A stretch of DNA of 43,590 nucleotides, from positions 1 to 43,590 of the forward strand of contig JAKAKE010000070.1 of the NCBI GenBank assembly GCA_021824625.1, given 5' to 3'. A program made the translations under genes and the position numbers. Shown one piece after another: positions 7,221 to 43,590 of this stretch. Position 1 is the first letter of the stretch. Each line of letters opens with the position of its first letter. This DNA is from Bacteroidota bacterium (lineage in GTDB: Bacteria > Bacteroidota > Ignavibacteria > Kapaibacteriales > UBA2268). The notes beneath the pieces were generated by a model. The model was not told the DNA's origin. It worked only from the letters and a program-made list of their open reading frames with translations, and searched no databases.

Positions 7221-8141
7221 ATGCCTGAAAGTAAATTATTTATTGAGATAGCATCTTTAGAAACGGAGCAAAAAAATCCGCAGACAGAGAATATTGATAT
7301 TGCCTCGACTAAGGAAATTCTCGGGATGATTAATGATGAGGATTTAACTGTTGCTTCAGCAGTGCGTAAAGAAATTCCCAATATTACTAAAGCAGTTGAC
7401 AGACTCGTTGAGTCTTTTAAAGCCGGAGGAAGGTTATACTATTTCGGAGCAGGAACAAGCGGCAGGCTTGGAATAGTTGATGCGGCAGAATGTCCGCCCA
7501 CATTCGGTACAGACCCTGAAATGGTACAGTGCATTATTGCCGGAGGGCATAAAGCTGTTTTTAAGGCTCAGGAAGGTGCCGAAGATGCACCTGAAAACGG
7601 AGCAAGAGAAATAATTGAAAGAGGTATTCGAACTCCTGATGTCGTTTGCGGTATTGCGGCATCCGGCAGAACACCGTTTGTCAAAGGCGCTTTGGAAGAA
7701 GCAAGGAAAAGAAATATATTTACAATCTTAATAGCAACAGTACCAAAGAAAAAAGCAATTGAGAATGGGATGATTGCTGATATTATGATTTGCCCAGTGG
7801 TCGGTCCCGAAGTTATTACAGGTTCAACCCGAATGAAATCCGGGACAGCACAAAAGCTGGTGTTGAACATGCTGACAACTGCTTCAATGGTACGGCTTGG
7901 AAAAACACTCGGGAACGTGATGGTTGACCTCCAGCTTACTAATGCAAAACTCAGGGAAAGGGCAAATCGAATACTTATGATGCTTGCCGATGTTGATTAT
8001 GATACTGCTGAGAAAATTCTTAAAGAGAACGGTGGGCATGTTAAAACAGCACTTGTTATGCTATTGGCGGATGTTGATGTTGAACAAGCAAAAGCCCGAC
8101 TTAAGAAAGCAGGGGGATTCATTAAAAAAGCAATCTTTTAA
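7221..8141 (+). CDS. murQ: N-acetylmuramic acid 6-phosphate etherase MurQ
   Basis: 306 residues, close to the roughly 300 usual for the family. MurQ splits N-acetylmuramic acid 6-phosphate into GlcNAc 6-phosphate and D-lactate in peptidoglycan recycling. The SIS sugar-isomerase fold is seen from YYFGAGTSGRLGIVDAAECP (74-92), the family signature. Glu90 and Glu121 sit 31 residues apart, the same spacing as the catalytic pair Glu83/Glu114 of the E. coli enzyme. The phosphosugar loop TGSTRMKSGTAQKLVLNM is intact, and the C-terminal helices (LADVDYDTAEKIL, LADVDVEQAKARL) form the usual UBA-like tail. It stands alone: no MurNAc transporter, MurK/AnmK kinase or amidase gene is adjacent. Confidence 0.96.
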   Translation: MPESKLFIEIASLETEQKNPQTENIDIASTKEILGMINDEDLTVASAVRKEIPNITKAVDRLVESFKAGGRLYYFGAGTSGRLGIVDAAECPPTFGTDPEMVQCIIAGGHKAVFKAQEGAEDAPENGAREIIERGIRTPDVVCGIAASGRTPFVKGALEEARKRNIFTILIATVPKKKAIENGMIADIMICPVVGPEVITGSTRMKSGTAQKLVLNMLTTASMVRLGKTLGNVMVDLQLTNAKLRERANRILMMLADVDYDTAEKILKENGGHVKTALVMLLADVDVEQAKARLKKAGGFIKKAIF

Positions 8142-8619
8142 TTCACAATTAAATTTAGTTATTAGGGGTTTAGGATTAACCTCACACTTTAGTCTAAGGT
8201 GGCTCGTATGTAGCACCTGGTCAGTTCTCGTGCCTCCCCCCCCATACTGAAGTATGGGGTTACTCTCATGCGGTGACGCAAGTTGGATGAATGGTGATTT
8301 GTGTGATTATGAGGTTTATGATTAACCTCACACTTTAGTGTGAGGTGGCTGGGATGTAGCACCTGGCAAGTTCTCGTGCCTCCCCCCTGCTGAAACATGG
8401 GGTTATTCTTATAAGGTGACGCAAATTGTCTGAACATGATTAAAGGGATTATGAGATTGCAGGATTTATTACACATACCTTAATACTTCCACAATGAAGG
8501 GAAATTATTTTTTATGTGGGGTTAAGACAATAGGTCCTGTGTCAAGTATGGAATGACAATTTCGTGATTCTTTTACAAGCACAATGTGACATGTAAAAAT
8601 TAACAATTCAAAATTAACT
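8142..8619. other. Intergenic region holding the two-unit hairpin repeat
   Basis: The region between the convergent murQ and TPR-CHAT genes is occupied mainly by the tandem two-hairpin repeat described separately (8180-8460). The last 150 bp are AT-rich with no recognisable feature; I see no good terminator for either gene. Small open frames on both strands here are generated by the repeat. Confidence 0.5.
8180..8460 (+). repeat. Diverged tandem pair of paired-hairpin (H1-H2) units
   Basis: Two units start 146 bp apart. Each has an H1 palindrome (8180-8199, degenerate right arm; 8326-8345, intact CCTCACACTTTAGTGTGAGG), a 39-nt spacer with four differences between copies, and an H2 palindrome (8240-8259, intact CCCCATACTGAAGTATGGGG; about 8384-8402, degenerate). 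H2 is followed by GGTTA(C/T)TCT and a shared GGTGACGCAA word. The spacer contains GCAC...GTGC, which can form a further stem. The same H1 and H2 palindromes build the array at the right end of the window, with different spacers. Confidence 0.88.
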
Positions 8620-11600
8620 TTATTCTCCGACCATTACGAAGCCGCCCCAATAGTATGGGTAGTGGTATTTGTCTCTCATCTCATTTCTTGCTTCGTTGAA
8701 TGCTGTACGTTTATCTTTGCCGTTTAACCATTTTGAATAAAAAGATGTCATCAATTCCTGTGTTTCTTTGTCAGGTACAGTCCATAGTGACATGATAATA
8801 CTCTTAGCTCCTGCCTGCTGGAATGCTCTTTGTAATCCGTAAACTCCCTCTCCATTTTTGATTTCTCCTAATCCGGTTTCACAAGCACTCAAAACTACTA
8901 AATCTGTTTTATCCAAATTGAGATTCATAGCCTCATAAGCTGTAAGTAATCCATCATCTATATTTTGATTTTCCAGTTTTTGATTGTTTAATGTATTCTC
9001 TGCTCCTGAAAATAATAAGAACGACCTCAGTAAGGGATTCTCTGCCACTCTCTTTGTCTCCATTCCCATTAACATTTCATCATTCCTGATTTCAATATCC
9101 TTAAGAAATTTCCCATGTGTAGCAATATGTAAAATCCTCGGATTATCTACTCCTTTTACTGCTTCCTCCAATGCTTTCTCTCCCAGATGTGAATTTACAT
9201 TCCATCCTTTTTTTGTGAATTCATTTGCTATTTGTTCTATTTCTGTTCTTGTTGAAGGTAATGGTATTATACCACCTCTTGTTGTACTGTCCAATGTATT
9301 ACCGAGATAGTAGAATTCTCTTGTCCTGTTTTCTGCTATTGCATTAGCCAGTTCAAGATGTTTTGTACTATCCAAATTGAACATCGGGTCGCCAAATAAT
9401 TCAACAACCATTTCCCCCTTTTTCAAAGGGGGATTAAGGGGGTTTTCTTTCCTCTCCACCAAATCCCTCGTACTTGTTACAACTCTAATATCAACATCAT
9501 CAGAAAGATAATGCTCTGTCTTTGGATTCATCAGTGTAGCAAGATTGATTTGATTATATACACCATCGGGAGATAAATAAACTGTCTTTATTCCTTTCAA
9601 TTTCTTTGCAATCGGTTCCCAAAATTGTGAGTATGAGTCTTTGTCTTCGAGTTGATTTTGAATAGAATTATGATAATTTTTGATGTATAATTTTTCTAAT
9701 TCAGCACCGTTCTTCAGCAGGACTAATTCAGGCTCTTTTGATTTTTTCATAACAATTAATGCGGAATAGAAAACAGTGTCTGTTATTCTGCCTTTTTCAA
9801 TAAGATTGATTCTTACGATTTCAACAATAGCTTCATCTTTTTCCAGATTTTTTTGGACATCTTTCCAATTTAATTTTTGCATATCATATTGTTTTTGGAA
9901 AATCTCAGAACGTTTTGTCAGTTCTTTCTCCTGCTCATTGGCAGATTTGATAATCGAATCTAAATTGATTTTCTTTTTTTCCAATAGAGCTTTGGAGAGC
10001 AGATAGAGCTTCGCGATGTATTCTTTTTTATCCTTCCAGCTATTAAAAAGTTGAATTAAAGTAGTGTCATTGCTTGACAGAATACGGCTTCTTACCTTGT
10101 TTGTGGAACTTAAAAGCATTCCCTTAGTCAGCAATTGATTATCAAACATAGTTTCAAGTATTTGCGGAGATTCTTTATACCTTAAAAAAGCGAAATTATT
10201 GAATTGCAGATAGTATTTTGAAAAAGTATTAAAATATTGTCCCTTTTCTTCCTCGGATAGAGATGGAAAATAATTATTTAACATATTGTAGCAAACTGTC
10301 ATTAGCTCAAGATATAGATGTTCAGCATCGTCGTAGCGTCCCCAGCGTTTGTAGAATGAAGCCATTTGATTTATGGAATTTGACAAATACGGATGGCCCC
10401 CTTTGAACAAACGTCTTCTCATCTCTAATGCCTCTTTGTATAATGGCTCGGCTTCGGAATATCGTCCCCTTTCATTGTAGAACATTGCCATGTTATTGAT
10501 GGAGTTTGCTAAATCAGGATGGTCGCCCTTGAAGAAGCGTCTTCGCATTTCCAATGCTTCTTTGTATAGGGGCTCAGCTTCATTGTAATTACCCCTGCCA
10601 TCGTAGAAATAAGCCATGTTATTGATGGATGTTGCTAATTCCGGATGGTCGCCTTTGAATAAGTGTCTGCTCATCTCTAATCCTTCTTTGTATAGTGGCT
10701 CAGCATCCTTGTAATTACCCCTGTCATCGTAGAACAAAGCCATGTTGTTGATGGACCCTGCTAAATCAGGATGGTCGCCCTTGAAGATGCGTCTTCGCAT
10801 TTCCAATGCTTCTTTGTATAGGGGCTCAGCTTCATTGTAATTACCCCTGTCATCGTAGAACAAAGCCATGTTGTTGATGGACCCTGCTAAATCAGGATGG
10901 TCGCCCTTGAAGAAGCGTCTTCGCATTTCCAATGCTTCTTTGTATAGGGGCTCAGCTTCATTGTAATTACCCCTGCCATTGTAGAAATAAGCCATGTTGT
11001 TGATGGAGTTTGCTAAATCCGGATGGTCACCCTTGAAGATGCGTCTGTACATTTCCAATGCTTCTTTGTATAGCGGTTCAGCTTCATTGTAATTACCCCT
11101 GCCATTGTTGAATGCAGCCATGTTATTGATGGATTCTGCTAATTCAGGGTGGTCGCCATTGAATAGACGCCTTCTCATCTCTAATGCTTCTTTGTATAAT
11201 GGCTCAGCATCGGCATAACGTCCCTGCCCATTGTTGAACATAGCCATGTTATTGATGGATCCTGCTAATTCAGGGTGGTCTCCCTTGAATATATGTCTTC
11301 TCATCTCTAATGCTTCTTTGAATAACGGCTCGGCTTCGGAATAGCGTCCATGTATAACATTGAAATATGCTATGCTATTGATGATGTTTGCTAAATCCGG
11401 ATTATCTCCCTTGAATAAACGTCTGCTCATCTCTAATGCTTCTTTGTATAATGGTTCAGCTTCATTGTAATTACCCCTGGCATTGTATAACATTGCCAAG
11501 TTGTTGATGGAGTTTGCTAAATCAGGATGGTCGCCCCTGAATAATGTTCTGCATAATTTCAGGTGAATTTCCTGATAATAAATGGCTGAATCCAATTTAC

Positions 11601-11841
11601 CTGAATAATAAAATAATTCGGCGATTGAACCAATAGTAGAAGCATAATTTGTATCTAATTTGCAAAATTCTTTTTCAACTTGTGGAAGTGCTTTCTGTGC
11701 CAACTGCAAAGCAGTTTGGTAGTCCTGCTTTTCCTGATAAAATTTCGTGCTGTCCATCAGCTCCTGCCAGGACTGGGCGTAGGCAGTGAATAGTGAACAG
11801 TGAATAGTGAACAGTATAATTAATGTGAATATAATTCTCAT
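8620..11841 (-). CDS. Exported TPR-CHAT protein
   Basis: I choose the ATG at 11841 (1073 residues) rather than the longer frame from 11910 because AAAGGATATATT precedes it and it begins a clean signal peptide (MRIIFTLIILFTIHCSLFTA then YAQ). Residues about 103-522 are ten consecutive 42-residue tetratricopeptide repeats of kinesin-light-chain type (GDHPDLANSINNMA then GNYNEAEPLYKEALEMRRR). A coiled linker follows, then a C-terminal CHAT domain, a caspase-like cysteine peptidase fold, with likely catalytic His909 (LHIATHGKF) and Cys987 (VVLSACETGLGE). TPR-CHAT proteins are widespread and mostly uncharacterised; the signal peptide places this one in the periplasm or beyond. No T9SS C-terminal sorting domain is present. 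An in-frame repeat insertion lies at 9411-9444. Confidence 0.9.
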   Translation of the reverse strand: MRIIFTLIILFTIHCSLFTAYAQSWQELMDSTKFYQEKQDYQTALQLAQKALPQVEKEFCKLDTNYASTIGSIAELFYYSGKLDSAIYYQEIHLKLCRTLFRGDHPDLANSINNLAMLYNARGNYNEAEPLYKEALEMSRRLFKGDNPDLANIINSIAYFNVIHGRYSEAEPLFKEALEMRRHIFKGDHPELAGSINNMAMFNNGQGRYADAEPLYKEALEMRRRLFNGDHPELAESINNMAAFNNGRGNYNEAEPLYKEALEMYRRIFKGDHPDLANSINNMAYFYNGRGNYNEAEPLYKEALEMRRRFFKGDHPDLAGSINNMALFYDDRGNYNEAEPLYKEALEMRRRIFKGDHPDLAGSINNMALFYDDRGNYKDAEPLYKEGLEMSRHLFKGDHPELATSINNMAYFYDGRGNYNEAEPLYKEALEMRRRFFKGDHPDLANSINNMAMFYNERGRYSEAEPLYKEALEMRRRLFKGGHPYLSNSINQMASFYKRWGRYDDAEHLYLELMTVCYNMLNNYFPSLSEEEKGQYFNTFSKYYLQFNNFAFLRYKESPQILETMFDNQLLTKGMLLSSTNKVRSRILSSNDTTLIQLFNSWKDKKEYIAKLYLLSKALLEKKKINLDSIIKSANEQEKELTKRSEIFQKQYDMQKLNWKDVQKNLEKDEAIVEIVRINLIEKGRITDTVFYSALIVMKKSKEPELVLLKNGAELEKLYIKNYHNSIQNQLEDKDSYSQFWEPIAKKLKGIKTVYLSPDGVYNQINLATLMNPKTEHYLSDDVDIRVVTSTRDLVERKENPLNPPLKKGEMVVELFGDPMFNLDSTKHLELANAIAENRTREFYYLGNTLDSTTRGGIIPLPSTRTEIEQIANEFTKKGWNVNSHLGEKALEEAVKGVDNPRILHIATHGKFLKDIEIRNDEMLMGMETKRVAENPLLRSFLLFSGAENTLNNQKLENQNIDDGLLTAYEAMNLNLDKTDLVVLSACETGLGEIKNGEGVYGLQRAFQQAGAKSIIMSLWTVPDKETQELMTSFYSKWLNGKDKRTAFNEARNEMRDKYHYPYYWGGFVMVGE
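9411..9444 (-). repeat. Dispersed palindromic repeat inserted in frame in the CHAT gene
   Basis: On the plus strand this 34-bp stretch reads TTTCCCCCTTTTTCAAAG and then GGGGATTAAGGGGGTT, with an 8-bp stem (CCCCCTTT/AAAGGGGG). It is a repeat common between genes in several bacterial phyla. Here it is translated as NPLNPPLKKGE within the linker or start of the CHAT domain without breaking the frame. A related copy lies at 37917-37948, and weaker relatives at 1988-2021 and 6320-6351. Confidence 0.8.
10276..11535 (-). repeat. Ten tandem 126-bp repeats coding the TPR array
   Basis: Each 126-bp unit codes one 42-residue TPR of the CHAT protein. Several neighbouring units are nearly identical in DNA, for example those around 10726-10980, which implies recent duplication or gene conversion. 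The outermost unit nearest the CHAT domain is the most diverged. Confidence 0.9.
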
Positions 11842-12055
11842 AATATATCCTTTAAAATATATATTTCGGTCTAATGAATATAAGTTAAAATTAAGGAAAT
11901 TTAGAATCATATAAAATATAATTTAATTTATTCTAATAATTTAATTAGTTTTTGACTAAATAAATACAATCATTAATAATTATAGTCTTAATAATATTAG
12001 TCCATCCCCGTCTAATTAAAACTTAATAAAGCCTGATTATTAATTTTATATAAGT

Positions 12056-37270: not shown

Positions 37271-37294
37271 AACCTCGTACTGAAGTGCGAGGTT
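37271..37294 (+). repeat. Solo hairpin of the ACTGAAGT palindrome family
   Basis: The core CCTCGTACTGAAGTGCGAGG (37273-37292), extended by AA/TT, has the same ACTGAAGT centre as the H1 and H2 palindromes but a third stem sequence. It lies 23 bp after the beta-barrel gene stop. There is no T-run, so terminator function is doubtful. Confidence 0.75.
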
Positions 37295-38007: not shown

Positions 38008-41000
38008 TTATTTTACGATAACCATTTGCTTGGTTTCGGAATAAGCACCTGTAGTCAATGTGTAGTAATAAACTCCGGTGTTCAGGCGCAATGAGTTAGT
38101 ATTAACCTTAACTTCTTGCTTACCGGCACCGAGTGTAGTATTGAGAAGCACTGCAACTTCACGTCCGAATAAATCAGTTACTGTCAGACGCACTGCTGAA
38201 GGCCTCGGCAATTCAATCCAGATTGATGAATTAACACTGAATGGGTTCGGTTGATTCTGGGAAAGACTGAATCCTTCGTAGTTATCATCAACAGCACCTA
38301 TGATATCGGTATTAACAGTAACGGTAACAACTTCAGACCTTAAGTTTCCGCAATCGTTTGAAACGACGCAGTAGTAATCACCTTCGTCGGCTTTAGCAGC
38401 AGAATCAATGCTGAATGAACTGGCAACAGCATCAACTATTTCATTTCCGTTCTTGTACCACTGATATGTGAGTGGTTCTGAACCGGTTGCTGTAATGCTG
38501 AGATTAACAGGCTGATTTTCGGTTACTACAACGGGTATCGGCTGTATTGTTATAGCCGGAGCAACGTTTACGGTAACTGTAGCAGGATTGGTTGTTGACG
38601 TGTTTGTAGTCGGCAATGCAGTGATTTCACATGTGTAATCACCGGAAAGCCCTGCCGTCAGATTGCTGATGGAAAGGGTGTTAGTAGATGTACCTGCATA
38701 ATTTGCATTATCTCCGATGCCCATTCCATTGCGTTTCCATTGGTAAGCTAATCCCGTACCACCTTCGGTAACGGTAGCATCAACCGTAAGCTGGGCGTTG
38801 TCTCCTTCGCAGGCAGTTAAGCCCTGGGGCTGAGAATTGATGACAACCTGGGGAACTTTCAAAAGTTTGAATGTCCTGGATGAGTCGTTATTGCACTCGG
38901 AGAAGACTTTTGCATAATAATTAAAGTTATAGTCGTTATCATCAATGTCCTTGATGCCAAGGATATTTGATGCGGCTCCTGAATACTTCTTATTATTTGT
39001 AATCTGAGTATAAACGTTATTAGCGTCAATCTTCCACCATTCGTATCTCGGGCTGAACAGCGGCGGGTCATCGAGTAAACCGAATGCATGTGCTTCGACT
39101 TCGAAGTACAATGAAGCGCCTGCTTCGGCAAATTTGTCAACCGGGCTGCGTGTGATTTCGACAGGAGCGAGTATGTTGACCGTTACGTAATCCGTCCAGA
39201 GAACATCCTGGCCAAATCCGAATACCTGGCATCTGTAAACGCCTGCATTCGAGTAATTGAGAGGCCCGAAGAACAGAATAGACTTGTTATAGTTCGGGTT
39301 GTCCAAATTAGTCATTGGAACGTCATCTTTCCACCACTGATAATGAATAGGAACACCGAGCGTTAGGAATGCGGATACTCTTAAATCGGTATTAGCAGAA
39401 CCAAGACATTCGTTCATGGTTTCCGGCTGGGAAACTATGCTGAGCGTGGGATGCAGGTTGTCCGCACCTGTAAAGAATCCGCTTGCCGACCTGTCTTCGA
39501 GGTCGAAATCATAATTCTCGAATAACCAATAGTATACCGGGTTATCTCCAATTACCGGTGGCAAAGTCGGTGGAATATAGGGCCATACAGTATTCGGGAC
39601 GGCTGCAAAAAGTGCATCCGGGCTGATCATGTCTTCTTCAAACATTGCAAGGTGCAAATTATTTGGAGCATTGAAGGTCCTGTCGGTGAAGTATGTTTCT
39701 TCGTCGTTTGGCGTTGTGTAATAGCGCCAGTTGAGCATCGTTGCACTTGTATCGAGATTGCCTAATGTATAAACCACCTGTACGTCTGTGTCATACCACC
39801 TGCCTATGAACTGTCCGAGTGCCGGTGTGGCAGTATTCCAGAAATTATTCTGGTTTGCTTCGTAAGTCGGGAAGTTCTTTACACGCATTACTTTTCCGTA
39901 TCCGGCATTTTGTAATATGTTTCTGTATAATTGAACATATCCTCCGTCAATGACTGCAACTGCATACTCGTTGTCAATTGTGTTGGAGTTCACACTGATT
40001 GTGTTGTAATAAAATCCTATGTCCCATGAACTGACTTCGTTAATACCGACCAGGTCCTGTCCGTCAACCATATTGGTTGCAAAGACACTGCCGTAAGAAT
40101 TATTAACTGCTAATCCATTCAAGCCGACACTACCGAAGCCCGGGTTATTGTTAACATGAACTGTGTTCTTAGTAACAGCGACAGAAGCTGTGTTATCGAG
40201 CAGAATGCCATTACCCAAATCCATATCGAGCATCGTTATTGTGTTGCCGTCAACGGTAACGCCGAAACTGCTTGAAATCTGAGGCCTGCCGTCATTTTTC
40301 TTTGCTCCATCGGGACGCTGTGTATTGGGATTCGAAATAATAATACCTGTTAACGGATTATTAAGAGTATTAAGGATAGTAATATTATTATTGCTGCCAA
40401 CGGTACCTAATGTAACATCATTAAGGCGAATACCATCAACGTTTGTAAGGTTGTTGAAAGTGTTACCCGATACCTGAAGCGGACTGGTTGTCATATAGAA
40501 AAACGGGTATGTATGTGTAACCTGCAAGGCAGCCTGTCCCTGGCCAATTCCCGTAATTCCCGAGAAAGTATTGCCTGTAATCACAGTTGAATTCCATGTA
40601 TGCAAGCCGCCCATCGGGTTTGTGTAATTATAGTTGCTTATTGTATTGCCGGTGAAGTTAACCGAACCGCAGTCCTGCATTCCGTCATAAGCAAGGTAAA
40701 CACCGATATTCCTGGCTCCGAGGAAATAGTTGCCCTGGAAATCGAGTGTACGGCAAATATTCGATATATTTTCATAAACATTATAAGAACCGTAATAAAT
40801 ATGGTTGCCCATGAACTGAATATTATCTGCCTGGTCGAGATAGAACACTGCATGCGACGGGTCTGTTATTAGTGTTTCGATACCTGTGAAGTTACATCCG
40901 TCGAATAATATGTTATTGCAGTTCGACAAGTTGAACATTCTGCCCCATGCGTTTGCAGGTGCTTCGAATACCTGGAAGTTGATATCCTCGAATGTTACGT

Positions 41001-42534
41001 CTGAGGCACCCGAAAGGTCGCCAAGATAAAATCCTGCGCCCGGCAAAGTATGCTGTAAAGTAACTACCTCACCCGGAGCGGGCCTTATGATTACAGGGCT
41101 CCCGCCGGGATTTGAATAAGCACCCAGCGAAAAACTTCCCGTATAGGGTGTACCGAGGTTTCTGACCTCAAATATGACTGGAAGTCCCATCGTACCGTAT
41201 ATACCGCCGCCATTCAGATAGTTGATGGCTGTCTCGAAATCCGGGAAATTACTCAATGGGCCGCCCACAGTGTATGTGGTTCCTTCTGCAAGTTTTGCCG
41301 CTTTTGAAATAAATGAATAATTGTTCAGCATGTCATAATCTGTAACAGCAGTAAAAGATGCGGATGCAGTTATATAGTATGGAGCCATCGGCGATTTAGC
41401 AGGGAAACTGCCTGAACCAATTGTTACATCGGCAAAATTACCGGGTTGAATTTTCAATCCGGAAGATTGAATCCAGGGTGCTAAAGGCGTACCGTCAATT
41501 GCGGGATATATTTCAATTCCCCAGCCCTGGTCGGAATCCAAGGGCCTTGCGCCTGCATTATAAACGCGGCAGACGATTGGAACGGAACCGCCATCTCCGA
41601 TTGGCTGTAATCCATAAGGATTTGTAATGTCAATATCATAATTAATCGGTGAAAATACCCTTTGCATATATGCAGGGCTTGCGTCTGTGTAGGCACCACC
41701 ATTCAATGATGCACTTCCCTGAACACTTATTTGACATGGTGACCATCCGGGCCCGGTAATAGTATAATATGTCGGGTTTGGAAAAGTAACAGTAGTTGAT
41801 GCATCCGGTGCAAGGCTGCCTGACCAGTTCAGAACCTGAGTCTGAGGATCCATACCTGTATTAGTTGTCGTAAGTGTAAGGTCAATACTTGTCAAAGGTA
41901 TTGAAACACCGGTATTTTTCAAAACTGCAAAAGTCTGATAGGGACCAACGTGGAAAGGTACAGTGTAGTTATATCCTGCCCTATATATTTCTGTTACTTC
42001 TGCATCGGGCATCGGTGGTACTGCAACTATTGTATAGTCCTCAACCTCTCCATAATATTGACCGCCACAGGGGTTAGAACCTCCATACCAAACCATACGA
42101 ACTCTCATTCGCGTTGTTCCTTCTACCAAATTCAATGGAGCAACTATTGTACCTGTGAATTCATGGTAATCACTTGTTGTTAATAAGGTTTGTTCCCCGG
42201 CGTCTGTCAAGACGCAGTTACTATTCCAGTCAATAGAAACGTAAACAGCATCACCAGTATAACTAGGCCCTCCATTTATTACTGTAATTGTGTAACTTTT
42301 AGTTGCCTTCATTATTGTGCTTTGTGCTGTGTAGTCACCAACCCCACCTTGCCAACCAGTAGTATTATTTATTGTGCCGACTGTAACCTGGCCAATATAT
42401 TCATCCTGTGTGGTTGTTGAAGCAGCGCAATATGTGCATGCATTGGCATAAGATATTGATGTTGCCGCATAAAACAACAGAAACATGAGTGTTGATAGGA
42501 GCAATGCCTTGCTCAATTTTGAAAATAACTTCAT
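38008..42534 (-). CDS. T9SS-secreted GEVED / beta-helix / Ig-repeat surface protein
   Basis: 1508 residues with AGAGGTG before the ATG and a signal peptide ending near SYANA (about 32). Residues about 33-172 are a GEVED domain (VSIDWNSNCVLTDAGEQTLL; QYYGEVEDYTI). Residues about 180-415 look like two CARDB-type beta-sandwiches. Residues about 430-930 have right-handed beta-helix character (repeated N-G-N-T-I strands such as VTGNTFSG, VSGNTFNN, VDGNTITM). Four Ig-like domains follow (YQWWKD, YEWWKI, YQWKRNG and YQWYKNG cores). The last ~90 residues, from FSLSQNQPNPFSVN to ETKQMVIVK, are a T9SS sorting domain. Paired cysteines in the Ig domains suggest disulfides. It is probably a surface adhesin. 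Confidence 0.92.
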   Translation of the reverse strand: MKLFSKLSKALLLSTLMFLLFYAATSISYANACTYCAASTTTQDEYIGQVTVGTINNTTGWQGGVGDYTAQSTIMKATKSYTITVINGGPSYTGDAVYVSIDWNSNCVLTDAGEQTLLTTSDYHEFTGTIVAPLNLVEGTTRMRVRMVWYGGSNPCGGQYYGEVEDYTIVAVPPMPDAEVTEIYRAGYNYTVPFHVGPYQTFAVLKNTGVSIPLTSIDLTLTTTNTGMDPQTQVLNWSGSLAPDASTTVTFPNPTYYTITGPGWSPCQISVQGSASLNGGAYTDASPAYMQRVFSPINYDIDITNPYGLQPIGDGGSVPIVCRVYNAGARPLDSDQGWGIEIYPAIDGTPLAPWIQSSGLKIQPGNFADVTIGSGSFPAKSPMAPYYITASASFTAVTDYDMLNNYSFISKAAKLAEGTTYTVGGPLSNFPDFETAINYLNGGGIYGTMGLPVIFEVRNLGTPYTGSFSLGAYSNPGGSPVIIRPAPGEVVTLQHTLPGAGFYLGDLSGASDVTFEDINFQVFEAPANAWGRMFNLSNCNNILFDGCNFTGIETLITDPSHAVFYLDQADNIQFMGNHIYYGSYNVYENISNICRTLDFQGNYFLGARNIGVYLAYDGMQDCGSVNFTGNTISNYNYTNPMGGLHTWNSTVITGNTFSGITGIGQGQAALQVTHTYPFFYMTTSPLQVSGNTFNNLTNVDGIRLNDVTLGTVGSNNNITILNTLNNPLTGIIISNPNTQRPDGAKKNDGRPQISSSFGVTVDGNTITMLDMDLGNGILLDNTASVAVTKNTVHVNNNPGFGSVGLNGLAVNNSYGSVFATNMVDGQDLVGINEVSSWDIGFYYNTISVNSNTIDNEYAVAVIDGGYVQLYRNILQNAGYGKVMRVKNFPTYEANQNNFWNTATPALGQFIGRWYDTDVQVVYTLGNLDTSATMLNWRYYTTPNDEETYFTDRTFNAPNNLHLAMFEEDMISPDALFAAVPNTVWPYIPPTLPPVIGDNPVYYWLFENYDFDLEDRSASGFFTGADNLHPTLSIVSQPETMNECLGSANTDLRVSAFLTLGVPIHYQWWKDDVPMTNLDNPNYNKSILFFGPLNYSNAGVYRCQVFGFGQDVLWTDYVTVNILAPVEITRSPVDKFAEAGASLYFEVEAHAFGLLDDPPLFSPRYEWWKIDANNVYTQITNNKKYSGAASNILGIKDIDDNDYNFNYYAKVFSECNNDSSRTFKLLKVPQVVINSQPQGLTACEGDNAQLTVDATVTEGGTGLAYQWKRNGMGIGDNANYAGTSTNTLSISNLTAGLSGDYTCEITALPTTNTSTTNPATVTVNVAPAITIQPIPVVVTENQPVNLSITATGSEPLTYQWYKNGNEIVDAVASSFSIDSAAKADEGDYYCVVSNDCGNLRSEVVTVTVNTDIIGAVDDNYEGFSLSQNQPNPFSVNSSIWIELPRPSAVRLTVTDLFGREVAVLLNTTLGAGKQEVKVNTNSLRLNTGVYYYTLTTGAYSETKQMVIVK

Positions 42535-43030: not shown

Positions 43031-43590
43031 CCTCACACTTCAGTGTGAGGACGGGGTAGTCAACCGACAAGTCTCATCCCTCCATACTGAAGTATGGAGT
43101 TATAAGTAACCTCACACTTTAGTGTGAGGGGAACGGTTAAGAGACATACAGGGAGAATCTCCCCCCATACTGAAGTATGGGGTTAAAGTAACCTCACACT
43201 TCAGTGTGAGGGGAACGGGTAAGAGTCAGACAGGGAGAAGTGGGCAGCCCAAGTCATCATCTCCCCCCATACTGAAGTATGGAGTTATAAGTAACCTCAC
43301 ACTTTAGTGTGAGGGGAACGGTTAAGAGACATACAGGGAGAAGTGGGCAGCCCAAGTCATCATCTCCCCCCATACTGAAGTATGGGGTTGTAAGTAACCT
43401 CACACTTCAGTGTGAGGACGGGGGAGTCAACCGACAAGTCTCATCCCCCCATACTGAAGTATGGAGTTATAAGTAACCTCACTTCAGTGTGAGGGGAACG
43501 GGTAAGAGTCAGACAGGGAGAAGTGAGCAGCCCAAGTCATCATCTCCCCCCATACTGAAGTATGGGGTTGTAAGTAACCTCACACTTCAG
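43031..43590 (+). repeat. Tandem array of paired hairpins (H1-spacer-H2), six units plus a truncated seventh
   Basis: H1 palindromes (CCTCACACTTCAGTGTGAGG, or a TTTAG variant) start at 43031, 43110, 43192, 43295, 43398, 43477 and 43578; the last is cut by the window end. H2 palindromes (core CCATACTGAAGTATGG, up to CCCC/GGGG) start at about 43082, 43163, 43267, 43368, 43449 and 43548. H2 is followed by a linker such as GTTATAAGTAA. Two spacer classes occur: ACGGGG(T/G)AGTCAACC... (units 1, 5) and GGAACGG(T/G)TAAGAG... (units 2, 3, 4, 6). Unit steps are 79, 82, 103, 103, 79 and 101 bp. There is no coding potential. The array continues beyond the window. Confidence 0.95.

Follow-up and report, generated by a model that had tools for sequence, protein, structure and literature searches.

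A tagged hairpin array at a contig end of a Bacteroidota bacterium, very probably the BIME run of a REPtron built around an IS200-branch TnpA_Y1 transposase

The stretch of DNA analysed here (the window, 43,590 nucleotides) is the whole of contig C231 of a Bacteroidota (Ignavibacteria) draft genome of 3.58 Mb in 231 contigs. Its right end is occupied by alternating palindromes, raising the question of what kind of element such an array is and which enzyme, if any, acts on it. The two palindromes are H1 (CCTCACACTTYAGTGTGAGG) and H2 (CYCCATACTGAAGTATGGRG), and the centre of H1 is the reverse complement of that of H2, as the original prediction had claimed. Six copies of each are followed by a cut-off H1, so the array at 43031-43590 consists of six complete H1-spacer-H2 units and a partial seventh that runs off the contig end (Table 1), in agreement with the at least six and a half units first proposed. 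The tandem units are 91-95% alike and are linked by 9-10 nt; their spacers measure 29, 33 or 53 nt and have sequence in common. When every loop is read in one orientation, complete hairpins in the window comprise 8 bp, a TTYA loop and 8 bp, the exceptions being two copies with one unpaired position and one 18-nt copy. They carry the 5' tag TAA, or AAA or CAA in three copies, and each unit is an inverted pair with the tags on its outer sides. Over both strands of the window there are 20 matches to the H1 core and 14 to the H2 core, where 0.12 and 0.01 are expected by chance. The extent given in the original prediction was real but too small, since two dispersed units and a single hairpin elsewhere in the window had been missed. 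A 126-bp tandem repeat in the window (10349-11541) lies inside an ORF on the minus strand (8620-11910) and codes for the TPR repeats of a TPR-CHAT protein.

Table 1. Hairpin units and single hairpins in the window
Feature	Positions	Strand	H1 start	H2 start	Basis
BIME unit 1: H1 (tag AAA), 29-nt spacer, H2	43031..43099	+	43031	43080	sequence
BIME unit 2: H1, 33-nt spacer, H2	43110..43182	+	43110	43163	sequence
BIME unit 3: H1, 53-nt spacer, H2	43192..43284	+	43192	43265	sequence
BIME unit 4: H1, 53-nt spacer, H2	43295..43387	+	43295	43368	sequence
BIME unit 5: H1, 29-nt spacer, H2	43398..43466	+	43398	43447	sequence
BIME unit 6: H1 of 18 nt (two bases missing), 53-nt spacer, H2	43477..43567	+	43477	43548	read from sequence
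Unit 7: partial H1 cut by contig end	43578..43590	+	43578		
Dispersed BIME: same hairpin pair, other 40-nt spacer, H1 degenerate	8180..8259	+			
Dispersed BIME: same family, 37-nt spacer, H2 degenerate	8326..8402	+			
Single degenerate REP, TAA-CCTCGCACTTCAGTACGAGG	37273..37292	-			

The original prediction had suggested extending the contig to the right and looking for a TnpA_REP-like Y1 protein, and contig C15 supplied the gene and probably the extension as well. The end of C15 overlaps the reverse complement of the window end by 63 nt with one mismatch, so that the window array and the C15 array are likely, though not certain, to be one, the window holding its more distant portion. On C15, two arrays of window-type units flank a gene for a 140-aa protein of the Y1_Tnp family (PF01797, 97.6 bits). 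The upstream array has five units and ends 79 bases before the transposase ATG. The downstream array has three complete units and one cut by the contig end, and the TAA stop codon of the transposase gene is also the tag of its first hairpin. The upstream neighbour of the transposase gene encodes an ABC transporter. Gene order is the same in the congener G003, where the ABC-transporter stretch is 86.8% identical and the syntenic transposase locus has one unit upstream and three downstream, compared with five and at least three on C15. Arrays that flank a single Y1 tnpA gene are a feature of REPtrons, and this arrangement is found in both species.

The genome has one copy of this transposase, its other matches being 30-38% identical. 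The closest named relative by transposase is Ignavibacteria bacterium RIFOXYC2_FULL_35_21, with 87% protein identity. An AlphaFold2 model of an 87%-identical homologue (pLDDT 84.8) gave 30 PDB matches at E <= 0.001 with TM-scores of about 0.6, every one of them named a transposase; among them are IS608, ISDra2, TnpA_REP in complex with a REP hairpin, and IS200-type and other proteins. Ten relatives show no variation at the HUH histidines, the tyrosine or the Q--HH residues.

The tyrosine motif, YIVNQEEHH, fits Y---Q--HH, which is the signature of TnpA_Y1 subclass 1.2 in the classification of Quentin et al. 2018 (PMC6006769). The DH[VI]H motif, the short protein and the low copy number also agree with that subclass, and the fold and the NCBIfam IS200/IS605 model (NF033573; 77.6 bits, cut-off 55) identify a transposase of IS200 type. 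The score with the NCBIfam REP transposase model (NF047646, REP_Tyr_transpos) is 28.5 bits, below the cut-off of 80, and the Y---NP motif of the class-2 TnpA_REP proteins is replaced by Y---Q--HH. In PMC6006769 the REPs described for class-2 subclasses are tagged with GT[AG]G. No GTAG or GTGG tetranucleotide is present at the hairpin foot here, the tags being TAA, AAA and CAA in the window and TAA/AAA, TTG and TAG in relatives. Both of these defining features are absent, which places the arrangement outside the class-2 RAYT/GTAG kind described so far. For subclass 1.2 the REP column of the table in PMC6006769 reads 'no', and our searches of the open-access literature gave no report of REPs for it.

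The association of gene and hairpins was examined in relatives. A first linkage scan of 42 loci found AA-tagged hairpins near 14, namely the C15 gene, 12 relatives and L087, the last with only one weak A+T-tagged hairpin. In the first set, AA-tagged TTYA hairpins lay no more than 500 bp from the gene in 12 of 14 relatives and were absent beyond 1 kb in all; the two relatives without are those that are 30-32% identical. A further 33 relatives (28 new loci from a draw of 395 Bacteroidota genomes and five from an earlier search), which were the closest by protein rather than a random sample and had not been selected for hairpins, were then scored, and TTYA hairpins were present within 500 bp of the gene in 30 of them, at odds with the absence of associated REPs in the published table. 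The three loci without are L079, L221 and L228. Among the 32 loci with a recognised Y motif (a motif test that left out L226, included in the count of 33), 29 have hairpins, with 92 near the gene (31 kb) and two far from it (41 kb); 0.1 were expected from shuffles.

The window locus was already known when the hairpin criteria (8 bp, TTYA, G+C) were set. When the loop was left free, which removes the loop assumption alone, 72 of 74 perfect 8-bp hairpins near the 33 genes were TTYA-centred, as were eight of nine beyond 500 bp. In an alignment of 60 hairpins both sides of every one of the eight stem pairs vary, and pairing is kept in 97.7% of cells, compared with 33-49% in slid controls; these hairpins were collected with at least 7/8 pairs, so the pairing itself is partly by selection. 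The stems differ among relatives yet stay paired.

A second candidate enzyme is encoded on C15 itself. A class-2 RAYT gene (locus L046, 2822-3358, minus strand) lies about 4 kb from the array gene, its product passes the NCBI REP_Tyr_transpos model at 118.6 bits against the cut-off of 80, and it too is syntenic in G003; the hairpins could belong to this enzyme, with the class-1 gene a bystander. However, the RAYT gene has repeats of its own: on one side (L046 2500-2820) seven copies of a CCCTGTCRRGAGTTA repeat with five palindromic GAGTTACTC cores, and on the other (L046 3381-3389) one related core, GAGTAACTC. Because these repeats are unlike the TTYA hairpins, the class-2 RAYT was rejected as the cognate enzyme. 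Moreover, the TTYA arrays adjoin the class-1 gene, and it is class-1 homologues that have TTYA hairpins beside them in the 30 of 33 loci above, at which class-2 genes were not sought. We regard a bystander role for the class-1 gene as very unlikely.

A protein tree was built from 69 loci. Four short or broken proteins were omitted, those of L069 and L071 (TAA hairpins), L083 (TAG, CAT) and L093 (none), and L072 was not in the input. In the resulting 65-row quick tree, for which SH-aLRT is the sole support, one branch (SH-aLRT 96) has hairpins in 41 of its 44 rows and the other side in one of its 21, four of these 21 rows being Y1 paralogues from the same genome. The tags cluster on this tree: the classes TAA, AAA, TTG, TAG and none require 10 changes, compared with a shuffled mean of 35.9, a test that overstates independence because many rows are related. 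A sub-branch of 20 rows (support 97) has TAA/AAA tags in 18 and no hairpin in two; outside it there are two more TAA rows. Some sub-branches combine TTG and TAG, and one locus can contain both tags. At L083 (G022:C14) the homologue is broken by a stop codon, and two TTYA hairpins with the tags TAG and CAT are nearby. On C15 a pair of TAG-tagged TTYA hairpins (L046 5028-5047 and 5123-5142) lies between two genes; TAG is the tag class of other relatives, and this contig bears the TAA-type array.

The association was also assessed genome-wide in 395 Bacteroidota genomes, 71 of which have a close copy of the gene, defined as a match at 1e-30, so that more diverged copies count as negative. With a hairpin covariance model (R1), for which up to about 20 candidates per genome were scored under strict filters, at least 10 hits were obtained in 37 of the 71 gene-positive and 24 of the 324 gene-negative genomes, and at least one hit in 64 and 109, respectively. 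After removal of the 30 gene-positive genomes that had been looked at for model training, at least 10 hits were present in 21 of 41 gene-positive genomes. Hits without the gene and genes without hits are real exceptions: seven of the 71 gene-positive genomes have no R1 hit, and the congener G001 has REPs with homologues of at most 33% identity. Gene loss, diverged copies or draft gaps could account for them.

Copies throughout the genome were sought with a 22-base pattern, allowing up to three mismatches, with the reversed pattern as control. In this genome the pattern had 76 matches on 22 contigs, corresponding to 69 places after seven both-strand overlaps had been merged, and the control had none; the 69 include weak matches, and those on C12, C38, C94 and C150 failed a stricter hairpin test. 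By that test, 21 dispersed loci that were fetched contained an inverted (convergent) pair in 14 cases, a single hairpin in three and none in four. All but one of 20 loci tested are intergenic, clear of any ORF of at least 100 aa, and 10 of 18 genome matches with two mismatches are compensated pairs. The 8-mer ACTGAAGT alone is not enriched in the genome (145 occurrences, 166 for the reversed control), so the counts depend on the longer patterns. Matches on both strands of congeners numbered 69 in G003, 43 in G002 and 19 in G001, the controls again giving none, and any match to the pattern was present in 13 of 60 genomes searched. The loci fetched from this genome (G000) and from G001-G003 yielded 60 convergent pairs (58 distinct). 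The palindromes are thus many, short, dispersed, mostly intergenic and arranged as inverted pairs with their tags outside, as are REPs and BIMEs.

The number of units at a given site differs between species. Beside the window ORF 7221-8141 there are two units here, eight at the orthologous site in G003, and no TTYA hairpin at that site in G001 or G002 (3.2-3.5 kb examined), a comparison of copy numbers in which the exact insertion junction, or a precise empty site, was not defined. Variation in array size among congeners, together with the 91-95% likeness of the tandem units, is what would be seen if the array were simple satellite DNA that slippage or recombination had expanded with no enzyme involved. 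The hairpins are, however, dispersed as pairs, and in other families they turn up again, with other stems, next to homologous genes, which makes a satellite origin extremely improbable. The original prediction would have been reduced to a local satellite by an array found once in the genome and not in relatives; dispersal of the family in the congeners argues otherwise.

The spacers had been predicted to carry both conserved sequence and conserved structure (GGGAGA..TCTCCC and GGGC/GCCC). Shared sequence was found, whereas the structure was not: RNAalifold consensus folding of 13 units from the window array and the C15 arrays gave no pairs in the spacer, nor did consensus folding of 45 other units of the genus, and in both sets the hairpins alone pair. 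Folds of single units vary, some pairing parts of the spacer and others pairing H1 with H2 into one long hairpin. REPINs have been described as folding into one long hairpin. An Rfam scan of the window returned a tRNA elsewhere as its sole match, with none at the array. The suggestion of a structured RNA thus gained no support, either as structure beyond the hairpins or as an Rfam match. The array might still act as a terminator, an mRNA stabiliser or a regulatory RNA, its link to the transposase being historical; the hairpins are stable, and known REPs have acquired such roles according to PMC6006769 and PMC8266576. Given that spacer pairs are not conserved, that Rfam is blank at the array, and that the array does not follow a coding region but sits 497 nt before the start of a gene that is read in the direction away from the array (38008-42534, minus strand), we consider such a role highly improbable. 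The 1508-aa product of that gene has Ig-like and GEVED domains and a weak match to a type IX secretion tail (22.9 bits, cut-off 27).

The gene and its flanking hairpins could instead be an ordinary IS200/IS605 insertion sequence, the repeats being its ends and decayed copies. The NCBIfam name of the protein agrees with this, as does the presence in several relatives (for example L075, L076 and L078) of a single inverted pair of hairpins some 25-75 bp from the ends of the gene, an IS-like layout. A gene moving with its ends and leaving near-identical copies was, however, not seen. At the cut-off used, 62 of the 71 positive genomes have a single match, and in the two-match genome that was looked at (G240) the copies are not near-identical, being 61 and 56% identical to the query. 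REP pairs are present at many places without the gene, and the gene locus is syntenic with G003 beside the ABC-transporter stretch. No plasmid relative was found by DNA, or by protein at 1e-20. An ordinary insertion sequence is therefore unlikely.

The array is very probably a BIME run of a REPtron built around a class-1 (IS200-branch) TnpA_Y1 of subclass 1.2 and not around a class-2 RAYT. The REP/BIME layout recognised in the original prediction is borne out by the flanking of a Y1 gene by the same units and the dispersal of the family in congeners, and the mobilised single-stranded DNA substrate proposed there fits the evidence, mobilisation being deduced. In single-stranded DNA each REP would fold into a TTYA-capped 8-bp hairpin. 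A TnpA dimer would bind the hairpin, its loop and its 5' tag (TAA here), and the HUH/Tyr site would nick beside the hairpin and join strands. REP pairs would in this way be copied or moved to other single-stranded sites, and arrays would grow through recombination between units. Binding, cleavage and mobilisation by the C15 enzyme, and guidance by the tag, are proposed by analogy. The model for these steps is the work on E. coli TnpA_REP, which, according to PMC8266576, binds single-stranded REP and makes tag-dependent cleavages at CT. Set against a REPtron are that movement has not been directly seen, that the tag differs from GTAG/GTGG, and the exceptions already given among genomes (24 of 324 without a close gene copy, seven of 71 with one) and among the 33 loci (three).

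The REPtron proposed here resembles those of TnpA_REP (RAYT) proteins, such as E. coli (subclass 2.2) and Stenotrophomonas (subclass 2.5), in its 5'-tagged hairpins some 20 nt long, its inverted pairs with variable linkers, its tandem and dispersed intergenic copies, its arrays flanking one Y1 gene, and its use of more than one stem type per array (H1 and H2, as Y and Z). Unlike those REPtrons, it has TAA/AAA, TTG or TAG in place of GT[AG]G, a TTYA loop throughout, and an IS200-branch enzyme that falls below the cut-off of the REP-transposase model. The enzyme shares with subclass 1.2, as outlined in PMC6006769, the two motifs, a length of about 140 aa, the low copy number and occurrence in Bacteroidetes, but in one clade REP-like hairpins flank most of the members that were examined, against the 'no' in the table there. 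It shares with IS200/IS605 elements (IS608, ISDra2) the fold, the HUH, Tyr and Gln residues and, as predicted here, hairpin substrates; it differs in that a low-copy gene is accompanied by dozens of gene-free hairpins, with no sign of the gene moving as a unit.

We think it rather probable, though with less assurance than for the array itself, that a whole clade of subclass 1.2 TnpA (Bacteroidota, with some Planctomycetota relatives) forms a REP system in its own right, which arose from the IS200 branch through a domestication separate from that of the class-2 RAYTs and has its own protein-read hairpin code (a TTYA loop with TAA/AAA, TTG or TAG as the tag). If so, many genes annotated as insertion-sequence transposases would be resident REP-spreading enzymes, and automated names such as IS200/IS605 transposase may conceal REP systems. 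This would offer a role for subclass 1.2, to which none had been assigned. In the literature covered here, REPs and their transposases are known mainly from GTAG-tagged, largely Proteobacterial examples; a second Y1 branch with its own REPs, common in Bacteroidota, would provide a comparative set for transposase domestication and tag reading. The distribution of tag classes on the protein tree leaves the guide hypothesis open to direct test.

Short tagged palindromes have also been reported, in the form of CGTC-tagged REPs, from Chlorobi, Bacteroidetes and other phyla (Di Nocera et al. 2013, PMC3733652), and that paper found no dedicated transposase for them. The hairpins in the window are similar in kind but have another loop, and their tags are not CGTC. 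The repeats beside the class-2 RAYT gene are a third hairpin type in one genome. At L056 (G000:C24) a paralogous subclass-1.2 Y1 gene (447-920) lies between hairpin arrays at 40-411 and 925-1408, with eight upstream and 10 downstream tandem copies at a period of about 51 bp, inverted about the gene; in G003 (L100, C11) there are four and four copies. The L056 hairpin differs from those above (CAACT..AGTTG) and has AACGTC/GACGTT alongside. L056 is a second REPtron-like locus, and the GACG/CGTC-like sequence flanking its hairpin may be relevant to the CGTC-tagged REPs that are said to have no transposase.
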